From the NCBI GenBank assembly GCA_030052745.1, contig JANBVO010000007.1:62001-126000 (forward strand): 64,000 bases of DNA, given 5' to 3'. A model generated the notes under the pieces. That model worked only from the letters and a program-made list of their open reading frames with translations. It was not told where the DNA came from and searched no databases. Within the stretch, counting starts at the first letter, position 1. Each line of letters opens with the position of its first letter. Both the position numbers and the translations under genes were made by a program. This DNA is from Pleurostoma richardsiae (taxonomy: Eukaryota; Ascomycota; Sordariomycetes; Calosphaeriales; Pleurostomataceae). This document shows positions 16,284 through 58,487 of this stretch, piece after piece.

Positions 16284-17579
16284 CGCTTTAGCTCATCGTT
16301 GTTCGTCGTTCTGGATGAGATGTTGTACTTATAGCAGTGTTTAGAAATTTCAATAGCCGCCGACTTTGGGCCGAACGGAACGTGCACTGAAAGAGGTGAC
16401 TGCGGGATCTGCTACGGTACCATTCTCATTGCATCATAATATTTCCACAGGTCAGCCGTGGACAAAATTATGCGATCCTCAAGACATTGCGCGTAGCAGC
16501 ACAAACAGGCCCTCCTCCAACCGAGTATCGATGAATTGACAAGACCTTCATCGTTGTGACGGAAGGGCAGATTGTGGATAGCGTCCCCATCAACAGAGCT
16601 AACACCCTACTCATTTTTCACGCCTAACTTGTACGTGAGAAGGTATGTATGTGTGCTGCTAGGCTATCGAATCAGAGCAGGACGAGCGGGATGGCACTAT
16701 TAGCAGACCGCAAGGAACCACTGCGCCGTCGTGATTCGCCAACCATGCGTGCGGCCCACCATCCACGGGGCAAGTGGACATGATGCACTTGAATCGACGT
16801 GGCGATACAAATTCGGATTGTTTGGTCAATGTTTAAACCTACGGAGTACTGCAAGGGCCGGGGTGGCCCCTGAAGTAGGCTATGAAGCCCTATAAGCTTC
16901 AGTGTTTCTATAATCCTCCTACTACACCTACCCATGTAGCACTTACAATGTCGGACCGCCTACAGTCCTAGACCACCCATCAAGTTGGTACAACGCTTGC
17001 TACGCTAGGTAAGTAAGTGTCGGAGGATGGCAGGATATCTTAGTAGGTAAGTAGATGCTGGACACAGGAAAGTAGGGAAGGCCCCGGATTATGAACACTC
17101 CACGTACTACCCTTATACTACCCTTGATTCCAGGGCACGATGCGACACCGCCCGGCTATATTCTTCAACTATGGTCTATTGCCACAGAGGACCTTGGCAG
17201 TTCTGCTTCAGCATAAAACAACTTTCTTGAAGACCGCCCTCCTTACAGTTGGTCCGCTGCCTCTCCCTGCTTTAAAAGTGAGATTGCAGATTCGGTAGCC
17301 TGGAAGCCGTTCTGGTACCCTCAGCCTACAACTATCAATGAAGATCCTTGAGACCTCCCTCTAATTACCGGTAATATCCACGGTCGCTCGAAGAACTACG
17401 ACACGTAAATTAAAGAGAGCCTTATAGTCTGATGGTGCATTTTGCATTACATTCTTTGAATGATGTGAATTTGAATGATATTTCCGTTAGAAGTCACTGG
17501 ACTAACTCGTTGTTATAGTAGTTTCGCGAGAAGAGGCCGCTTGAGCATGGTTAAAGCTAGTAAGTCTCCAATAACGAAG
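16284..17579. other. Gene-free stretch upstream of tRNA-Leu
   Basis: No protein gene was recognised. There are several copies of a TAGGTAAGTAAG-like motif between 17000 and 17060, a low-complexity motif seen again in other gaps. Confidence 0.5.
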
Positions 17580-17733
17580 GGCAAGATGGCCGAGTTGGTT
17601 ATGGGTAAGCTACAAGTTTCTCCCGTTAGTCAGGTACATCCATTCTAACACGAATCAGCGCTAGGTTAAGGCACATCCTTAACAGTGTTTCCTAGTGGAG
17701 AAATCCGCGTGGGTTCAAGTCCCACTCTTGTCA
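17580..17733 (+). tRNA. tRNA-Leu(AAG), copy A, with two introns
   Basis: A type II tRNA folds after removing two segments. Acceptor GGCAAGA pairs with TCTTGTC (one G-U), discriminator A. The D stem GCC/GGC is split. The anticodon stem is CTAGG/CCTAG and the loop TTAAGGT has anticodon AAG at 17668-17670. A variable-arm hairpin and T arm GTGGG-TTCAAGT-CCCAC follow. The usual intron after nt 37 is 17672-17689 (18 nt), and its CCTTAA pairs with the anticodon loop. A second 54-nt insert, 17605-17658, lies between nt 24 and 25 and has a GTAAGC start, CTAAC and a TCAG end. The mature length is 82 nt. The A box (TGGCCGAGTTGG) and B box (GGTTCAAGTCC) are intact and a T6 Pol III terminator lies at 17742-17747. 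Confidence 0.93.
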
Positions 17734-19129
17734 GCTTTCAATTTTTTGCCAATACCCCTAGGTATGATGTGCGCCAAACTTTTTACTTCCAAAGTGAAGT
17801 CGGCAGTGATGACACACGTCCCGTATCATATAACTCCCTTCGCCAGTTCGGCTTCTACTCGATTAGAACATTAGAATCATCGTGCTTCTGACCAATGCAC
17901 CTACTTCATGATGACCTTGGTGAGGACCGGGGTTGGATTCATCTTGCGCCGACCCTATTTCTTTGAATCTTCTTACTACAGGGTCAGCTTCTTCAGCACT
18001 TGCATTGCTGGGTTGTTCATAGCCATATTATTTCTTTCATTCTTGTGGTGGATGTTCTGCCGCCTCGAAAATGTCGTCGAATCTATCCTGGTTGAGTGTC
18101 CCTGTCAAGTTGGTCTTCCACCTCGGACATACCGCAGACTCCCCACACCGCATTGGGGCCGCATCTCGTCTACATCATCTTTCCTTGGAACTTGCACGAA
18201 ATCCCGAGATCTTTCAGCCATTCCAGCGCTCTCCCCTGTTTGCGGAGAGTAAGATCCGGGAGTCCAGGACCTCATTGCCCAAGGTGATTAGAAGACGTTC
18301 AAGAAGATTCTTGAAGAGCGACGACTAGTACTCGACATCAACAGCACTGAAATCGTCTCAGATCCGGTGAGTGTCCAGGCTGGTGGAACACTTCTTCACG
18401 AGGCAGCAGGACGCAAGAACACTTAGCTCACAAAGCCTACACCATCACCTTCGCACTCTAATTTACGCTTTAACCAAGCTGCTGCCATCACGTCAATCTC
18501 GTGGTTGACTATGTGTGCACAGATTGTTTTCAGGAGTTCGTCCAGGGAAGTAGCTTTGACGATTCGCACAAAACAGGTCATAATCAAGATCACATTCACC
18601 GATTTGGCATAATAATTAGAATCTTATAGTCGCTTGATCTGATAGCCAAGAAGCTATCAAGTCGTCGCGTGTATGTCTTCTGGCAAGAAGCTGTATGAGA
18701 AGTTGGTAAACATCATTTGGCCGAAGAATGTGCAGGAGACGAGGCCTAGAACGACTCGTACCTAGAGGCTGCGGTCGAGTCGGCCGAGGCCCGCCGGGAA
18801 ACTGGTGCCGGTTTCTCCATCCTACGGAGCCGGCGGTCGCGGCGGCCGCACCGGGGATAAAGCGCAAGGTAGTAGGAGTTAATGGGGCTTGGCGGCATTC
18901 TCGTCTCCGTCCTAGGCTGCTGTCTCAGGATGGTACATAAATGGTGTTGATAGGTGTCGTAATGATGAACCTTTCTTGAGATACATAGGTAGCGTTCCGG
19001 TCGAAGGACAGCGGGAGGCGGTCTTCACACTTCAAGCATCTGAGTATATCACTGGCATTACTCAGTGCAATCTCACGAGGTGGTAGCTGTGGAGCGACGA
19101 AGCGCCGAACGGATAACTGTGCAACTGCT
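17734..19129. other. Gap with a possible gene relic
   Basis: Between 17908 and 18330 there is a plus-strand frame with one strong hydrophobic span (FIAILFLSFLWWMF) and, in the next frame, a helical-looking segment (LHHLSLELARNPEIFQPFQ). They could be the shell of a lost gene with at least one frame change, but I cannot name it. The rest (18400-19129) shows nothing supportable. Confidence 0.35.
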
Positions 19130-20241
19130 ATGGATGTTGTAAAGAGGCCTTTCAAGCTCCCTGCGGACGCCGTGTGGTTTAGTAAGACACTCGCGCACCC
19201 TGGCGCCTGGAGCAGCAGCTAACAAGCTCAGTCACCGGCTGCTCCTCTGGCATTGGTCTGGCTCTCGCGACACTTATCGCAACGCAGCACCCCTCAAACC
19301 GTCTCGTGGCCACGGCACGGAGCCCTGACGCCCTTAAGGCCCATCTACCCACGGGTGCCAACGTTCTCGTCCTCCCTCTCGATGTGACGTCGGCTGAATC
19401 TATATCTGCCGCCGTGGCAGCCGCGATCTCGGCCTTTGGGCGCCTCGACGTGTTGGTGAACAACGCCGGGTACGGCCTCATGGGCGACACGGAGGCGGCG
19501 ACAGACGATCAAGCTCGGAAGGTGGTGGAGACGGACTTCTGGGGCACGGCGCGGCTGACGGTGCACGCGATGCGGGTGATGCGGGAGGAGAACGCCAAGG
19601 GAGACGGCCCCCAGGGAGGCCTGGTGATGAACGTCACGAGCATGGGCGGGTTCGTGGGGTTCCCGGGGAACGCGTACTACCATGCAGCCAAGTTCGCGGT
19701 GGAGGGATTCACGGAGAGCGTGGCCAAGGAGGTACGACCGGAGTGGAACAGTGAGTATCTCCGCTCTCTTTGTTACTCAATCCTCGTAGACAGAGTGACA
19801 GCAGCTAGTGGAGGAGCGCAGGGGCGAGAAGACGGAATATAACATGATGACTAACGGTGACGGATAACAGTCCACTTCACGATCATCGAGCCCGGCGGCG
19901 TGCAGACTGACTTCCCGACAAGAAGCGCTGTCCGTACGGCGGTGCACCCCGCGTACGAGCTGCCAGACTCGCCCTCGCGGGTGCTAGACAAGTACGTCTC
20001 AACGCCAGAGACGCGGCAGACGTGGGCTCTACCGCAGAAGATCGCCGAGGGCATGTATGGAGTTGCGAGCCGGGGCGAAAGTATCCCGCTGCGGGTGCCA
20101 CTCGGCCCTGACGCGTGGACGTTCATGAAACTCGAGCTAGAAAACGTAGACAAGAACCTTGATGAGGTCAAAGAGCTGAGTCATAAGGTTGGGAACACAA
20201 ATCAAGTTGAGTCGTTGGAGTTCATGAGGAAGCAGGATTAA
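19130..20241 (+). CDS. Short-chain dehydrogenase/reductase
   Basis: Three exons: 19130-19181, 19232-19750 and 19871-20241, 313 aa. Joining exons 1 and 2 rebuilds AVWFITGCSSGIG, the Rossmann TGxxxGxG motif at residues 19-26. NNAG follows at 94-97, catalytic Ser154 in NVTSMGGF and the YxxxK pair Tyr167/Lys171 (YYHAAK). EPGGVQTDF after the second splice is the usual nicotinamide-side loop of classical SDRs. Intron 1 (50 nt) has branch GCTAAC; intron 2 is 120 nt. It is a cytosolic NAD(P)-dependent oxidoreductase closest to the fungal and bacterial oxidoreductase group related to 17-beta-hydroxysteroid dehydrogenases. The substrate cannot be read from sequence. Confidence 0.92.
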
Positions 20242-20573: not shown

Positions 20574-21639
20574 TCAGACATGCGGCCCACGTGCAGCTCG
20601 CTGGGCTTCGATGACTGGGCCAGTATTGAAGGGGGTCGCAGGCACGCCCGTCACACTATGGGTAGGGGCGGCGTCAGGGTTGGCGATCTGGCCAGGGCGA
20701 GTCGGAGTGTCCTCACTGAACTGGTCATGCTTGATGGGAGGGGCGGGAGCAGCAGCACCGGGTTGCAGAGTTGACACACCTTCACCGGGGACCTTGTCGA
20801 CGTCTGGGCTGGCCGTCCCAAACTCCAGGATCTTAATGAATCCATAAAAGCCCGACGCGAGGAGAGCACCGAGAATTGGCCCAAGCCAGTAGATCCAGTG
20901 GTAGCCTGGGAAGCTGCGGGTCGCGACACAGGGCCCGAAGGATCGCGCAGGGTTGAGACTGCCGCCAGTGTAGTAGACGCCCCTGGTGACACGCGGGCAC
21001 ACGTCAGCAATCGGTAGAGAGAGGAGGTGCGGAATCCTGGTGAAGCCGAACTTACATCAACTCAGCGATGAAGAGAGCCAGGCCGATACACACGGGAGCG
21101 ACAAAGGTGGCTCGGTTCTTCTCGCCAGCGGTCATGAAGATGACGAAGACCAACTCGGCAGTGAGGAACATCTCCAGGAACAGGCCGCGGGCGATGGACA
21201 TGCCCGGCACCAAGACCGTCGACACGGCAAGAGGTCCAGGGAAGAGAGACGAAACCAGGGCTGCGGCACAGACGGCACCGAGGAGCTGGGCGACGATAAC
21301 GATAGCGGTGCGGAAGATGCTGGCAGAACCAGTGACGAGCATGGCGAAGGTCACGGCCGGGTTGAACTGGCCACCGCCGATACGAAAAAAGGCCCAGACA
21401 TTGACGGCAAGAGACAGACCAAATGCCAACGAGATGTAGAGCAGCTTGGCGGCGTTAGCATTTGTGTCGATGGGCTGCTCCCAGGCGGGAGCCGAGTTGA
21501 CGACGTTAGTGGCTCCGAAGGCAAACAGGAGGAACAGGAAAGTGCCAACGAACTCGCTGATGGTCGCGACGATGTGGTTCTTGATGGCTAGGGGAAGGCG
21601 ACGCGTCGCGGCGTGGCCCTGGTCACGAAAGCGGTCCAT
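20574..21639 (-). CDS. Aquaporin (MIP family)
   Basis: Exons 21639-21056 and 20982-20574, 330 aa. The channel signature is complete: first half-helix QFNPAVTFA (NPA at 93-95) and, after splicing, [11 protein letters not shown] (NPA at 205-207), with about six transmembrane helices ([30 protein letters not shown] and so on). The intron (GTAAGT donor, GCTGAC branch) rebuilds [16 protein letters not shown]. The start is the ATG at 21639 (MDRFRDQG); the open frame continues upstream without an ATG, so an additional 5' exon is possible. The C-terminal tail of about 90 residues is polar and proline-rich. By sequence it looks like an orthodox fungal water channel, not an aquaglyceroporin, but selectivity is inference. 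Confidence 0.93.
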
Positions 21640-26471: not shown

Positions 26472-28213
26472 TCACTGCTTCTTGTCAGCATCGCTATCGG
26501 CTGCCTTCGTCGTCGTCGTCTTAGTCGTCTCCGAGTCTTCGGCAGGGGCCTCAGCGGTCTGCGTCTTGCCCTGCCGCCATTTGTCAATCTTCTCGCCCAT
26601 GTATCTCCAGCTGCGGCTGATACCGGCCGTCAGCAGGCTCTTGAGACTCTGGGTTGTGCTCGGCCAGCTGATCGTCTGCTTGATGACCTTGCGGACGTGT
26701 CGGCGCAGCTCCTCGGGATCGTCGCTGGCGATGCGCCGCTCGAAGCCGCCGCCTTGCTGGCGCGTGAAGGAGCTGGCATCCTCGTTGCGGCTAGCCTCCA
26801 TCATGGCGTCAAAGTCGACCTGAGGCACGGCGAGCTTCTTCTGGTACTGGAAGTAGAGACGCGAGCGGAAGGCCTTGGGCAGACGGCGCACCATGTTGCC
26901 GCGCTTGACGGGGTCCATGTCTTGTCGCAGGCGCAGGTTGGCTGTCGGGTCGAGCAGCCAGTCGCGGTTGCGGGTGCCCGGATCGTCGAACTCGGCGTTG
27001 GGGAGGGTCTCGATCAGTGGAGCGTACAACCGGCGGAAGTTGGGGAGGTTGTTGCCGACGATGTTGGCCACCTTGCGGGGGTTCTCGGTGGGTAGGGACA
27101 TGCGGGGGTCGCCCAGGTAGGAGATACCGGCAATGGTGGCGTACAACTCTTGCTCTGTGAACTCGGGGGGCAATAGAAGGAGAGCAGTGCGCAGCGCTGA
27201 CAGCAAGTTCATCTGGTTCGCGAGGCGGACGCGGGCGTCGTCGCGCAGGATCTTGACAGGCTTGTGCAGACGGCCGGCCAGGTAGAGAGTGTCCCATTCG
27301 GTGAGATCCTTGCACAGGGTGTCGAGGTTGACGACGCCATACTTTATCAGAATGCCGTTGACGACGACGTAGGGGTTAAAGTAGACGCCGGCGCCTAGGC
27401 GGTCCTGCACGTAGGAGACGGCGCCGCTGCCGAGGCTGCCGAGGGCGCTATAGTGGTCGCGGTGCTGGTTAAGGTTGAGGCTATGCCAGTGCTGGGTGAA
27501 GGTGACGCCGAATATGAAGTCGATCATCTTTGGGGTGCCATCCTGGGCACGCTGCACGGCCAGCGGTGCCTTGGGGTGGACGGCGCGGATTTCGGCGTCG
27601 GTTGGGGTGCGGCCGCTGGGCTTGGACTGGGGAAACACGCCGGAGCCGTACGCAAAGGCGTAGCGGATGGGGGCGCGGAACTGCCACAAGATCTGGCGGA
27701 GGGCCTCCTTGAACTCGTCGTTAATTATCATGTGCTGGTTGACGCCGAAGTTGGTGTGCGGAAGCTCGGAGAAGTTGCGGATGTTGAGGTTGGCGTGCTC
27801 CTCCCAGTCGTTGGTGGAGGGCGGGGTGGAAGCGTCGGAAGCAGCGTCGCTCGACGATGGAGGTGTTCTAGTGGCATCGAACGCCGCCTTGTCAGAGGCC
27901 TGCTCTTTCACTGCCCCCTCTTCTGCGTTCTCAGGGAGCCCAGTCTTCATCTCTTCCAGCCGGGTGCAGCTGGACCTGAAGCCTCGCCGGAAGGTCGGAG
28001 CCGGTCGAGGCACGCATGAAGCGGACCTCCAGCTACTTCGGGTGTTCACTCGGATGGAGGACGGGCCCAGGAGCCTGGCGGCCTTTATCACCGTTTCCTG
28101 TCAGCAGGGTGCGCCCATGGCGGCAGAAGGGGGCGGGCTATGACGTCTGAGGGCGTCCCAATGCAATGGTAACTCACCACTACCGGCGGCACGGTTGCCA
28201 TTGAGGGCGGCAT
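26472..28213 (-). CDS. TAM41: Mitochondrial phosphatidate cytidylyltransferase Tam41
   Basis: Exons 28213-28178 and 28097-26472, 553 aa. The small first exon (MPPSMATVPPVV) is joined through a 80-nt intron (GTGAGT donor, GCTGACAG acceptor) to a basic, Ser/Arg-rich leader typical of mitochondrial targeting. The conserved Tam41/MMP37 core follows: LWQFRAPIRYAFAYGSGVF, MIDFIFGVTFTQHWHSLNL, NQHRDHYSALGSLG, VVNGILIKYGVV and YLAGRLHKPVKIL. The enzyme makes CDP-diacylglycerol from phosphatidate and CTP at the matrix side of the inner membrane, the first committed step to cardiolipin. The protein is longer than the yeast enzyme (about 385 aa) because of an N-terminal low-complexity stretch and a polar C-terminal tail. 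Confidence 0.96.
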
Positions 28214-41406: not shown

Positions 41407-41803
41407 CTCCTGGAACTGGACTTCTCCTAGTCGAAGTAGCATAGCTAGGCAGTCAAGAAATCTGGCAAGACTTCGACACATGCAGACGCCAAGGGGCAAC
41501 TTGTTCCCTCGGCTCTAATACATTGGTGTAAATTGACAGCTTCATTACATGTGTAACAGCGTCTCCCATCTTCCACAACGGCTCGTCCAATCCATGCCAG
41601 CCTTCATAATGTCTGCTGTCCCACCGAGGGCCCAGCACCCGACCTCAACTAAAACCTAACGGGATGCCCACGTAGAAGCAATTTTATCTCGCCGGACAGC
41701 AGAAGTACTTCCCACTGCGGATAATCACCGCTGCAGAATCTTGCATGCGAAAAGAACATTCAGACAGCCCCAGATAGAGCCCAAGAGATCAAAAATGAAG
41801 TGG
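41407..41803. other. Spacer between the desaturase-like gene and tRNA-Leu copy B
   Basis: It contains the presumed 3' end of the upstream gene and, at 41791-41795, the run that serves the minus-strand tRNA as a T5 Pol III terminator. Nothing else was seen. Confidence 0.5.
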
Positions 41804-41958
41804 TGACAAGAGTGGGACTTGAACCCACGCGGATTTCTCCACTAGGAAACACTGTTAAGGATCCAGCCTTAACCTAGCGCTTTTAATTGTTAGTTTGATA
41901 GTATTGAGGACCCTTGACGAGTGTAAGGCTTACCCATAACCAACTCGGCCATCTTGCC
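41804..41958 (-). tRNA. tRNA-Leu(AAG), copy B, with two introns
   Basis: The mature sequence is identical to copy A at 17580. The D-stem insert is 41933-41880 (54 nt), starting GTAAGC, with AACTAAC at its branch position and ending AAAAG. It sits between nt 24 and 25. The post-37 intron is 41866-41848 (19 nt) and contains CCTTAA complementary to the anticodon loop. The anticodon AAG is at 41870-41868. A and B boxes are intact and a T5 terminator lies 8 nt beyond the 3' end. The three bases after the discriminator are CCA (41803-41801), unusual for a eukaryotic tRNA gene but possibly chance. Confidence 0.93.
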
Positions 41959-44318: not shown

Positions 44319-44472
44319 TGACAAGAGTGGGACTTGAACCCACGCGGATTGCTCCACCAGGAATCGGTGTTAAGGATGGACCTTAACCTGGCGCTTTTTT
44401 CTATTAGAATGGACGTATCTGACTAATAGGAGAGATTTCTAACTTACCCATAACCAACTCGGCCATCTTGCC
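44319..44472 (-). tRNA. tRNA-Leu(AAG), copy C, with two introns
   Basis: Same architecture as copies A and B, with compensatory changes: the anticodon stem is CCAGG/CCTGG instead of CTAGG/CCTAG, and one variable-loop base differs. The D-stem insert is 44447-44394 (54 nt), starting GTAAGT, with CTAAT at its positions 41-45 and ending AAAAAAG. The usual intron is 44380-44363 (18 nt) with CCTTAA. The anticodon AAG is at 44384-44382. A T7 run downstream (44313-44307) can terminate Pol III. The paired change in the anticodon stem shows this copy is under selection for a folded tRNA. Confidence 0.93.
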
Positions 44473-46491: not shown

Positions 46492-47730
46492 ATGGCTTCC
46501 CGTTTCCTTCGTGCATTTATTGTTGCCGCGTCTGCGACGCAGGCTGTGGCCTCGTGTGCGTACGGCACCCATCTGGTCCCGCGTGCGGAGGAAGGCGAGT
46601 CGGTGGAGGTCAAGACATTTGGGTATGCCGGATCAATCGTACGATACTTCCCCAGTCACTTCGATCGAAGCCTAATGCCCGTGCCTGACTAAACATCCTC
46701 CAGGGGCCTCTTAACTGGGCGGCGCTCGACGGAGGGTCGGCCAATGTGGCGTGTGCCACGGGCACTCGCCAGAGCCCCATCGACATGGTCGACGGTGTCT
46801 TCCAAATGGTCTCAGCATCGGACCTGACGCTTCAGATCCCCGACATGCCCGAAGGCACCGAGTTCGAGAATCTCGGCACTACTGTCGAGGTCGTCGCGCA
46901 GGGTGGCAGCCTAGAGATCGGAGGGAAGACGTACGAGTTACAGCAGTTCCACTTCCATCTGCCCAGCGAACATCTTGACAACGGGACCAGCATTGCCAGT
47001 ATGTGATCGGGATGTATCATCGTGGGGAAGTCTCTGAGAGCTGACAGGCAAACTCACAGTGGAAATGCACATGGTCTGGCAGACCGCCGAGCAGGAGATC
47101 GCCGTCATCGGTGTCTTCGTCGACCTTGACCCGGGCACTACCGAAGTCACCACCCCGGCAGCCGAGAGACTCCGCCGCCGCGCCCGCCATCGACTCTCGT
47201 CCCGACAGGAGGCCGCGCCCGCTGAAACAGCCCCAGGGTCATTCGGCGGCATCCCGGGATTCCTGACCGTACCGATGGTCAAAGCAGCAGGCGTCTCTTC
47301 TAATCTCCTTGAGACCGTCCTGAGTAAGGTGGAGGAGATCGCCACGCCGGGTACGGTGACCAAGACGGACCCGCTGGTCATGAGCGAGCTCGTCAGCACG
47401 CTGCTTACTGGCTCTTTCCAAAGGTGAGACAGATTCTATAAAATATTCCCAATGCTCACGTTCGGCCACGGCTTTGCGGCTTTGCTAATAGTGTGCTGCC
47501 GCAGCTACTCCGGCTCCCTCACCACCCCGCCCTGCAGCGAGGAAGTCCTCTGGCTCGTCGCCACGCAGAAGCTTCAGATCCAGACGGCCACCTTCGAGAA
47601 GGCACGTAGCGTCATCGGCTTCAACGCTCGGTACCCGCAGAACACGCCCGGGCAGCCTAACCTGCTAGCCGTTGGCGCGGCGTCATCAGCCGCGGCGCAG
47701 GCGGCTCAGGTCCCCATTGCGGCAAGATAG
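46492..47730 (+). CDS. Secreted alpha-carbonic anhydrase
   Basis: Four exons: 46492-46638, 46704-46998, 47060-47423 and 47505-47730, 343 aa. A signal peptide (MASRFLRAFIVAASATQAVA) begins the protein. The alpha-type core is clear: FGYAGSIGPLNWAALD, RQSPIDM, the zinc pair in QQFHFHLPSEH, the third zinc histidine in MEMHMVWQT and YSGSLTTPPCSEEVLWLV near the C-terminal side. An insert rich in Arg/Pro (about 180-215, TPAAERLRRRARHRLSSRQ) separates the two halves and could be a processing site. It interconverts CO2 and bicarbonate, probably outside the cell or in the wall. All introns have regular fungal signals. Confidence 0.95.
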
Positions 47731-56131: not shown

Positions 56132-58487
56132 TCATACCGACAGCGTCCGGAGCTGTACGCCGGGCGGCGGCGGATTACCGGAGCGGGGTCCGGTGGTAAC
56201 GGAGGACAGCCGGCGCTTCAGGCCCTGGAGCGGCGCTCTCCAGTCGGCAGATACACGGGCCTTGGGTGCGAGGCGGCGGAATACGGAGCTATCGTGCTCC
56301 TGCAGGAGCCAGTAGTAGAAGGCGAATGTGACGCTCATCAGGACGGCCGAGGCGGCAACGTAGATCCAGACCATGGAGGTCCCTACGATGCGGCTGGTGT
56401 TTTGATCCATGTCGAAGAAGTTCATGCCAAAGAAGGTCTATAATCACGTCTTCAATCAGCAAGCTGCAACGCACACTAATTTCGACACGGGCGAGACGTA
56501 CCGCAACAAAGGACGGGGGCAGGTACACCAGCGTCAGGGTCGTGATGAAGACGGCCGATTTATTGAGCTGCAGCATGCTGGCGCCCTGTTCCTTCGCGAT
56601 GACCTGGTCACGCAGTGCCAATGTATCAGCTAGCAGTTGCGCCGTCGTGCGCGTCTGCTCAAGTAAGAAGGTCGCCGTGCGCTCACACCCCTTGCAGTGC
56701 CGCCGATGGTTCTGGACTGAAGAAGGGAGCTGTGAAGCTCCATCCAAAGCTGTGAGTTCCTCGAGCACATCTGCCGCGGTGGCGATGAGGGCGAGCACCT
56801 TAAGGAAACGTTTCTCGAGGCTGACGAGCGTGCTGAGGTTATCATAGCCTAGCCGCAGGGGCTCATCAATGTATGATGCCATCGTACTGTTTGCCTGAGT
56901 GATGTCAGATCCTGATGCACGCAAGCGCCAATTCATCTTGTCGTGGGTTCTCAAAACTCACAATTGGCAGAAGCTCGCGCTCTAGAGAAGCAATGTAGCG
57001 TCTCCAGGCAGGCAGGTGCGTTGACAAAAACACATCGTGGAGCCATAGCGGACCCTTTTTTGAAGCTTCCTGGTAGTGATCCAGGAGGAGACCTTGTATC
57101 TTCTGGTCTGCGACAGTGTTCGGATTAGGATTAAATAGGACGAACAGGTTCTGAAGAGTCGCCGTGTTGAATCGGTGGTATACGCCGCTTTGGCGGATCA
57201 CCCACTCATCCTCCTCGTCTTCATCCTCATCACCCTCCTTGAACTCGGGATAGCGAAGAGTGTATGAGCTCTCTACAACTGAGTGTCAGATAGGCCGCAT
57301 AACGGTCGTTGTCCTTCGGGTCTGTCTAACCGATCCAGTCCCCGTTTCGGGTGTGCGTGAAGGGAACGCAAAAGGCGGCCTCGAGCTCGATACTCCGGGA
57401 GTAGAAGCATGAGGGCAGCTCGTAGAACGACGAACTTATTTCATGTCTAGACACGAGGAGGTCGAGCATTGGCCGCGTCACCTGGAGAGGACTCCAAGAC
57501 GTCCGCTGGCATATTGATCTGAGATGCGGTCAGCATGCGACTCAGTGCTTGGTGCAGTCGCGTTGGCATCTACGCACATGTAGCGACAGGTATACTGATT
57601 GTTTGAAGGCTCCGTGAGGAAGAATTCAAGCTCCTCGGCGTCTTTGAAGCGATGCAACTGGTGAGTTGATTGACCTGGGGCTGCGTTTCCGCTCGCGGGG
57701 AGGACGTCGACGATCTTCACCGGCTCCAGCACCCTCGTAGCGAAGCAGTTGTCAAGAGGATCCATGTGTATTATGGCATCAGATTGCTTATGGTATCAAT
57801 ACATAACGTACAAGGCCGCGCCATCATCGACGAGAGCTCTCAAGAACTGTCGCGCGAAAAGAAAAACATGAAGAGGCCGATTGAAGTGGTTTGGTGATGA
57901 GGCGCATGGAGAGGGACCTGCACGGTCTAAAACGCCCAATGTAACGCCTTGCCGGCCCGCACCGACCAAGCCACAGCAGAAATTGCCTTCGGCATCTCCG
58001 CGTGGTGTGAGAGGGGGGACGGAAATGATGCCTTGCGGTCACCGCAACTCGTCGCCGGCGGCTTTACACGCTGGCTCCCTCTCGCACAGCACTGACAGCC
58101 ACACAAGTTAGCAGACCCTTTCCACTTGTGTCCAATCGTCTGGTCCATGTGGGTGCTGGTGGGCTTACTCGATGTCAGCCTGCGTCAAGACAAGGGCGTC
58201 AGTAACCACAAAGAGTCCTATTTGAGGGGCATGGTGCGCGCCTACTTCATCCACCTTGGCCGGCGTGGTGAAGGACCACTGGTCATCTTTCAACTGTAGC
58301 ATCTCCTGGGTTAGCGATGCTGCTCAACCCGTGGGGGATGCGGCACGATAAAAATGGCTCGGTGTTGCCGTACGCGAATGTTGAAGTTCTCGTGCCCTGG
58401 GAATTTCTCCTCCAGGAGCTTCTGCAGCTTCGCCTTCTTCAGGTAGCGCTTGCTGACATTCTGCGTGACAACTTCCTCCTTCCCCAT
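56132..58487 (-). CDS. CorA-like Mg2+ transporter family protein, many exons
   Basis: The 3' part is secure: exons ending at 57574, then 57505-57331, 57278-56962, 56894-56502 and 56437-56132. Splices yield CRYMC+RTSWSPLQVTRPMLDLL, DWIVVESSYTLRYPEF, RELLPI+ANSTMASYIDEP and LPPSFVA+TFFGMNFFDMD. The last has the CorA GMN signature after the pore helix and is followed by a second span (VWIYVAASAVLMSVTFAFYY). The 5' part begins MGKEEVVTQNVSKRYLKKA at 58487-58374, then 58305-58255 (EMLQLKDDQWSFTTPAK) and a very small exon near 58179-58169. The stretch from about 58090 to 57770 is not resolved. It probably acts in a membrane with two C-terminal helices; fungal members of this branch are poorly characterised. 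Confidence 0.8.

Follow-up and report, generated by a model that had tools for sequence, protein, structure and literature searches.

Putative spliceosomal-type introns in the D arm of nuclear tRNA-Leu(AAG) and tRNA-Arg(CCT) genes of Pleurostoma richardsiae

The removal of introns in eukaryotes is usually viewed as divided almost absolutely between the spliceosome, which acts on mRNA, and the tRNA endonuclease, which acts on tRNA, and canonical eukaryotic tRNA introns lie after nt 37 and do not follow GT..AG rules. A tRNA-Leu(AAG) gene of P. richardsiae, located in the 64,000-nt stretch of DNA analysed here as a whole (the window), is interrupted in its D stem by a short insert with GT and AG ends, which raises the question of whether a nuclear tRNA gene can contain an intron of the mRNA type. 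The species belongs to the Calosphaeriales (Sordariomycetes) in the NCBI taxonomy, and the window's protein at 26472-28091 (minus strand) shows 100% identity to a P. richardsiae protein. As judged from sequence, the D-arm inserts described below are probably (at roughly 85%) spliceosomal introns of the GT-AG, U2-type class residing in nuclear genes transcribed by RNA polymerase III (Pol III).

Genes carrying a D-arm insert

The first-pass annotation had described the insert as 54 nt in length (17605-17658), starting with GTAAGC and ending in TCAG, with TTCTAAC 9 nt from the end, and all of this is borne out by the sequence; its placing of CTAAC at 17641-17645 was mistaken, the true position being four bases further on (Table 1). 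Removal of the insert together with the 18-nt intron after nt 37 leaves, as had been claimed, an 82-nt type II tRNA-Leu(AAG), for which the A box (starting at 17587, as read from the sequence), the B box and a T6 run are found. The D insert can be cut in two frames giving an identical product, one of which is GT..AG.

Table 1. Positions of the tRNA genes, their inserts and the Pfam-tested mRNA introns (window coordinates unless a contig is named)
Feature	Position	Strand	Description
tRNA-Leu(AAG) copy 1	17580..17733	+	154 nt; exons 17580-17604, 17659-17671, 17690-17733
Copy 1 D-stem insert, spliceosomal-type	17605..17658	+	54 nt, GTAAGC..TCAG
Copy 1 branch-site-like CTAAC	17645..17649	+	expected branch A at 17648
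Copy 1 canonical intron after nt 37	17672..17689	+	18 nt; CCTTAA complementary to anticodon region
Copy 1 B box	17712..17722	+	
Copy 1 T6 Pol III terminator	17742..17747	+	
tRNA-Leu(AAG) copy 2	44319..44472	-	
Copy 2 D-stem insert	44394..44447	-	54 nt, GTAAGT..TTCTAAT..AAAG
Copy 2 canonical intron after nt 37	44363..44380	-	18 nt
tRNA-Leu(AAG) copy 3	41804..41958	-	the one place in the window that Rfam matched to tRNA (30.7 bits)
Copy 3 D-stem insert	41880..41933	-	54 nt, GTAAGC..AACTAAC..AAAG
Copy 3 canonical intron after nt 37	41848..41866	-	19 nt
tRNA-Leu(AAG) copy 4	C44:467292-467443		both inserts; D insert 52 nt
tRNA-Arg(CCT)	C72, L048:1360-1525		D-loop insert, TACTAAC, ACAG end; also an intron after nt 37
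mRNA intron, aquaporin	20983-21055		Pfam match spans junction
mRNA intron, CorA	56438-56501		Pfam match spans junction
mRNA introns, carbonic anhydrase	46999-47059, 47424-47504		Pfam match spans junctions
mRNA intron, short-chain dehydrogenase	19182-19231		Pfam match begins at junction

Only one affected gene had been recognised in the first pass, which is right for 17580-17733 but misses two more copies in the window, a fourth copy elsewhere and a tRNA-Arg(CCT) gene. When the whole assembly (39.4 Mb, 136 contigs) was searched with window positions 17500-17800, four places matched, copies 1-3 in the window and copy 4 on another contig. All four Leu(AAG) genes found contain both a D-stem insert and an 18-19 nt intron after nt 37, and their D-stem inserts (52-54 nt) start with GTAAG, carry CTAAY 9-10 nt from the end and terminate in AG. 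The insert of copy 4 lies 2 nt earlier (GTTAT/GTAAGT..TCAG/GGCGC), and its removal by GT..AG gives GTTATGGCGC, the same D arm. The genes have A and B boxes, a T run and paired acceptor, anticodon and T stems, and are thus predicted to be functional tRNA genes. The four copies may go back to one ancestral insertion, in which case they are not four independent cases.

The spliced sequence, used as a query, gave six matches (exon 3 of the four copies, a 15-nt match to exon 2 of copy 4 and a Leu(TAG) gene matched along its full length). A T-arm pattern with up to two mismatches was found at 15 places, which include all four Leu(AAG) copies and Arg(CCT) as well as five Leu genes with other anticodons (CAG in three, CAA and TAG, as named by ARAGORN); in these five the D arm is uninterrupted. 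The first-pass annotation had allowed that the mature tRNA might come only from other, intact Leu(AAG) genes, and neither the spliced query (five first-look candidates scored) nor the T-arm pattern found a Leu(AAG) gene without the insert in the assembly. In eukaryotes CUU and CUC are usually read by the tRNA with anticodon AAG, so that, provided the assembly contains every member of this family, the insert has to be removed.

The gene on contig C72, provisionally identified as tRNA-Arg(CCT) from our own reading of its sequence (ARAGORN names it Pro), contains a D-loop insert unlike that of Leu(AAG), with TACTAAC 13 nt from its end. Its 5' site is ambiguous between GTAGAA (56 nt) and GTTAGT (60 nt), which counts against a spliceosomal reading. 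The GTTAGT site is preferred, as it gives TGGCGCAATGGTAGCGCG, identical to the D arm of the tRNA-Trp gene L034, and has G at +5. A second Arg(CCT) locus was not found with the spliced 56-nt version as query (one first-look candidate).

In a partial survey of the assembly (63 of 807 tRNA candidates scored), 65 distinct T-arm sites were readable in 97 loci, and 47 of them led to a gene with acceptor pairing and an A box, mitochondrial genes included. Five of these 47 genes contain a D-arm insert and the remaining 42 do not. A genome-wide pattern joining the A box (TGGY) with GTANG and CTAAY had 11 matches as against eight in the control; four are the Leu(AAG) genes, and the other seven were judged only by eye from the sequence strings. 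The same design with a TAGY A box and GTRNG was not enriched (seven matches, 23 in the reversed control), which counts against the spliceosomal reading. Loci L062, L067, L085 and L055 were inspected and set aside as degenerate or chance matches; L067 (C1:1333461-1333508, minus strand), presumably Glu-like, is a degenerate tRNA-like sequence that keeps its T arm intact and is followed by a T run. The Leu-type D-insert pattern had no match in bacterial and archaeal genomes or in viral contigs. The plasmid collection was searched without a match.

ARAGORN with default settings reported no tRNA in the window, and with introns allowed it gave copies 1, 3 and 4 the names Cys, Ser and Met, failed to find copy 2 and took Arg(CCT) for a Pro gene (misnamed two-intron genes: 17580-17733 and 41801-41958 in the window; L002, L003 and L048). 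It was the only tRNA finder tried with introns allowed, and since it misnames or misses the known two-intron genes, others may be overlooked. Among other tRNA genes, ARAGORN placed long introns near the usual position in tRNA-Leu(CAA) (L049, 51 nt) and tRNA-Leu(CAG) (L046, 43 nt), and a 93-nt tRNA-Gln(CTG) (L008, C56:243420-243512, minus strand) stands beside a normal Gln(CTG) gene, with part of its anticodon arm and the following sequence seemingly duplicated (about 21 nt extra).

Splice signals and local mRNA introns

The inserts of copies 1-3 are equal in length, and the 11 columns of the motifs GTAAG, CTAA and AG are all invariant, as against 10 of the 43 other columns (Fisher p 4e-6, a value that is only indicative because the motif columns were picked after the inserts had been seen). 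Non-motif insert columns, 42 in number, agree in 30 cases between copies 1 and 2, in 13 between copies 1 and 3 and in 14 between copies 2 and 3, and the 60-nt flanks of the copies show an ungapped identity of 11-25/60 with longest common words of 6-12 nt. This pattern is consistent with a selected tRNA whose insert drifts outside its splice signals.

Chance seldom reproduces these signals. After shuffling of the copy 1 insert, GTAAG..CTRAY..AG stood in place in none of 200,000 trials and a looser rule was satisfied in 11 of 200,000. The arrangement GTNAG..CTAAY..AG with the spacing of the insert occurs in three of the 128,046 54-nt segments on both strands of the window (0 at 52 and 60 nt), and these three are the three Leu(AAG) inserts, each of which conforms to the rule.

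A frame-based scan for mRNA introns in the window returned 32 rows, in part representing different possible ends of a single intron, and nine in the reversed control; 12 rows were joined, and five introns were tested with Pfam (Table 1). These five are 50-81 nt in length and contain GTRNG and CTRAY, the latter 8-20 nt from the end. The tRNA D-arm inserts, with 52-60 nt, fall within that length range, their G+C content (0.31-0.48) is lower than that of the mRNA introns (0.48-0.62), and their branch sites differ from those of the mRNA introns in having AA rather than GA in most. GT and AG ends whose removal leaves a sound tRNA are present in all four Leu(AAG) genes and, with two possible GT, in Arg(CCT), and the branch sites are CTAAC, CTAAT, CTAAC, CTAAC and TACTAAC at 9, 9, 9, 10 and 13 nt from the end, respectively. 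The D-arm inserts are otherwise like local mRNA introns in length and signals. Two features count against a spliceosomal reading: the inserts lack a pyrimidine tract in the interval from the branch site to the AG, and copy 2 has an additional AG 2 nt past CTAAT, which would need to be skipped.

Alternative readings and a predicted processing route

The inserts might instead be ectopic introns whose removal falls to the tRNA splicing endonuclease, acting on a bulge-helix-bulge (BHB) structure in the D arm, with the GT..AG signals coincidental; this is improbable. Endonuclease-type introns in the D arm are known, many of those in the Guillardia nucleomorph being without a defined BHB motif in the available text of PMC3978253, and in the four Leu copies exon 1 can pair over 4 bp with the 3' part of the intron (GTTA with TAAC), a length shared by one of the seven canonical introns tested. 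Complementarity between exon 1 and the intron amounts to 4 bp in the Leu copies, 2 bp in Arg and 4-7 bp in the seven canonical introns; the Leu match may be a by-product of the D-loop GGTTA meeting the branch-site TAAC. At the Leu inserts none of eight tests gave a relaxed BHB. The Arg insert gave one in one of two frames for the 56-nt version, namely GT..AG, and in one of three frames for the 60-nt version, a shifted one; this corresponds to the chance rate, 113-246 of 2000 shuffled interiors scoring likewise. BHB testing is weak here and its strict form counts little, since not one of five canonical introns passed that form in full. Endonuclease cutting also leaves unexplained why only GTAAG, CTAA and AG stay fixed, and the inserts, situated in the D stem in Leu and in the D loop in Arg, depart from the rule of a position after nt 37. 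The presence of Sen15 (two pieces on C71) was also weighed against this reading.

That the insert-bearing genes are pseudogenes, and an intact Leu(AAG) gene is absent from the assembly, is very improbable. An assembly in 136 contigs may be incomplete, and the DNA search scored five candidates only, which leaves some room for such a gene. The mature Leu(AAG) sequences are alike at 77 to 82 of 82 positions among the four copies (82/82 between copies 1 and 3), two of the three differences of copy 2 from copy 1 make up a compensated anticodon-stem pair, and the two differences of copy 4 make up a compensated acceptor-stem pair. Moreover, the B box and T runs are intact in all four genes, and the lack of an insert-free locus in the searches made extends to Arg(CCT). 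Extremely improbable is that the inserts are self-splicing introns of group I or II: group I introns do occur in fungal nuclear rRNA genes, as stated in the accessible part of PMC8527467, but 52-60 nt is, as a matter of general knowledge, far below the size that the core of a group I or II intron requires, and Rfam at the gathering threshold found in the window (copies 1-3) only the tRNA at 41804-41958 and no other family.

The spliceosomal reading proposed in the first pass is favoured by the recurrence of the insert in the four Leu(AAG) genes, the occurrence of a different insert in an unrelated tRNA gene, the conservation of the motifs, the shifted insert of copy 4, the likeness to mRNA introns and the lack of a relaxed BHB hit at the Leu junctions. 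Under this spliceosomal reading, Pol III transcription would be directed by the A and B boxes, which are intact, and end at the T run, and the spliceosome would recognise a 5' site (GTAAG, or GTTAGT for Arg), a branch site (CTAAY or TACTAAC) and the AG, excising 52-60 nt as a lariat and restoring the D arm, while the tRNA endonuclease and ligase would take out the second intron, after nt 37. We infer transcription, lariat excision, the acting enzyme and the order of the steps from the DNA sequence. The evidence suggests, as its best reading, that one RNA would need both the spliceosome and the tRNA endonuclease. Both tRNA-Leu(AAG) and tRNA-Arg(CCT) are likely to be obligate products of the spliceosome, matured through spliceosome and endonuclease plus ligase, and the decoding of CUU and CUC, and partly that of AGG, would then be spliceosome-dependent. 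If this is true, a short Pol III RNA whose first exon measures just 17-25 nt can be a substrate of the spliceosome, tRNA supply is tied to splicing capacity, and the entry of introns into non-coding genes becomes testable.

Comparison with known systems

The first-pass annotation knew of no earlier description, and likewise no report of a spliceosomal intron in a tRNA gene was recognised in the open-access PMC literature, among the matches listed; the inserts would represent a known intron type in an RNA class for which that literature gave no report. The precedent invoked in the first pass, the U6 snRNA, is upheld by the available portion of PMC10484740, according to which U6 genes of Schizosaccharomyces pombe and other fungi contain an mRNA-type intron in a Pol III RNA. 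The tRNA inserts resemble this case in being spliceosomal-type introns within a Pol III RNA, but the U6 host is a part of the spliceosome, with an intron thought to derive from reverse splicing near catalytic bases, whereas the host here is a tRNA carrying a second, endonuclease-type intron. In the present assembly, with 47 of 2115 candidates scored, the only U6 match over the cut-off (L035, C49:929565-929667, plus strand) runs through the model uninterrupted by an insert; with 45.5 bits against a gathering score of 44, it may be diverged.

Spliceosomal introns are also found in the rDNA of lichen-forming and other ascomycetes, including one of 57 bp in Cladonia grayi which yeast removed from a Pol I rRNA (portions of PMC8527467), and titles in the reference list of PMC2586383 name an intron in the U2 snRNA of Rhodotorula as well as ascomycete rDNA introns. 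The rDNA introns are similar in size to the inserts described here, are spliceosomal and reside in a host RNA not made by Pol II, but there the host is a Pol I rRNA and here it is a tRNA made by Pol III. Archaea, the red alga Cyanidioschyzon merolae and the nucleomorph of the cryptomonad Guillardia theta have tRNA introns outside position 37/38, the D arm included, and more than one per tRNA, as described in the text available from PMC3978253. The genes of P. richardsiae share with them the D-arm position and the multiple introns per tRNA; those introns are assigned in that text to the endonuclease and BHB-type motifs, whereas the inserts here display GT, branch-site and AG signals, with no relaxed BHB hit at the Leu junctions. 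The four Leu(AAG) genes and the Arg(CCT) gene likewise contain the canonical intron after nt 37, and the D-arm insert is a second one, located elsewhere and carrying other signals.
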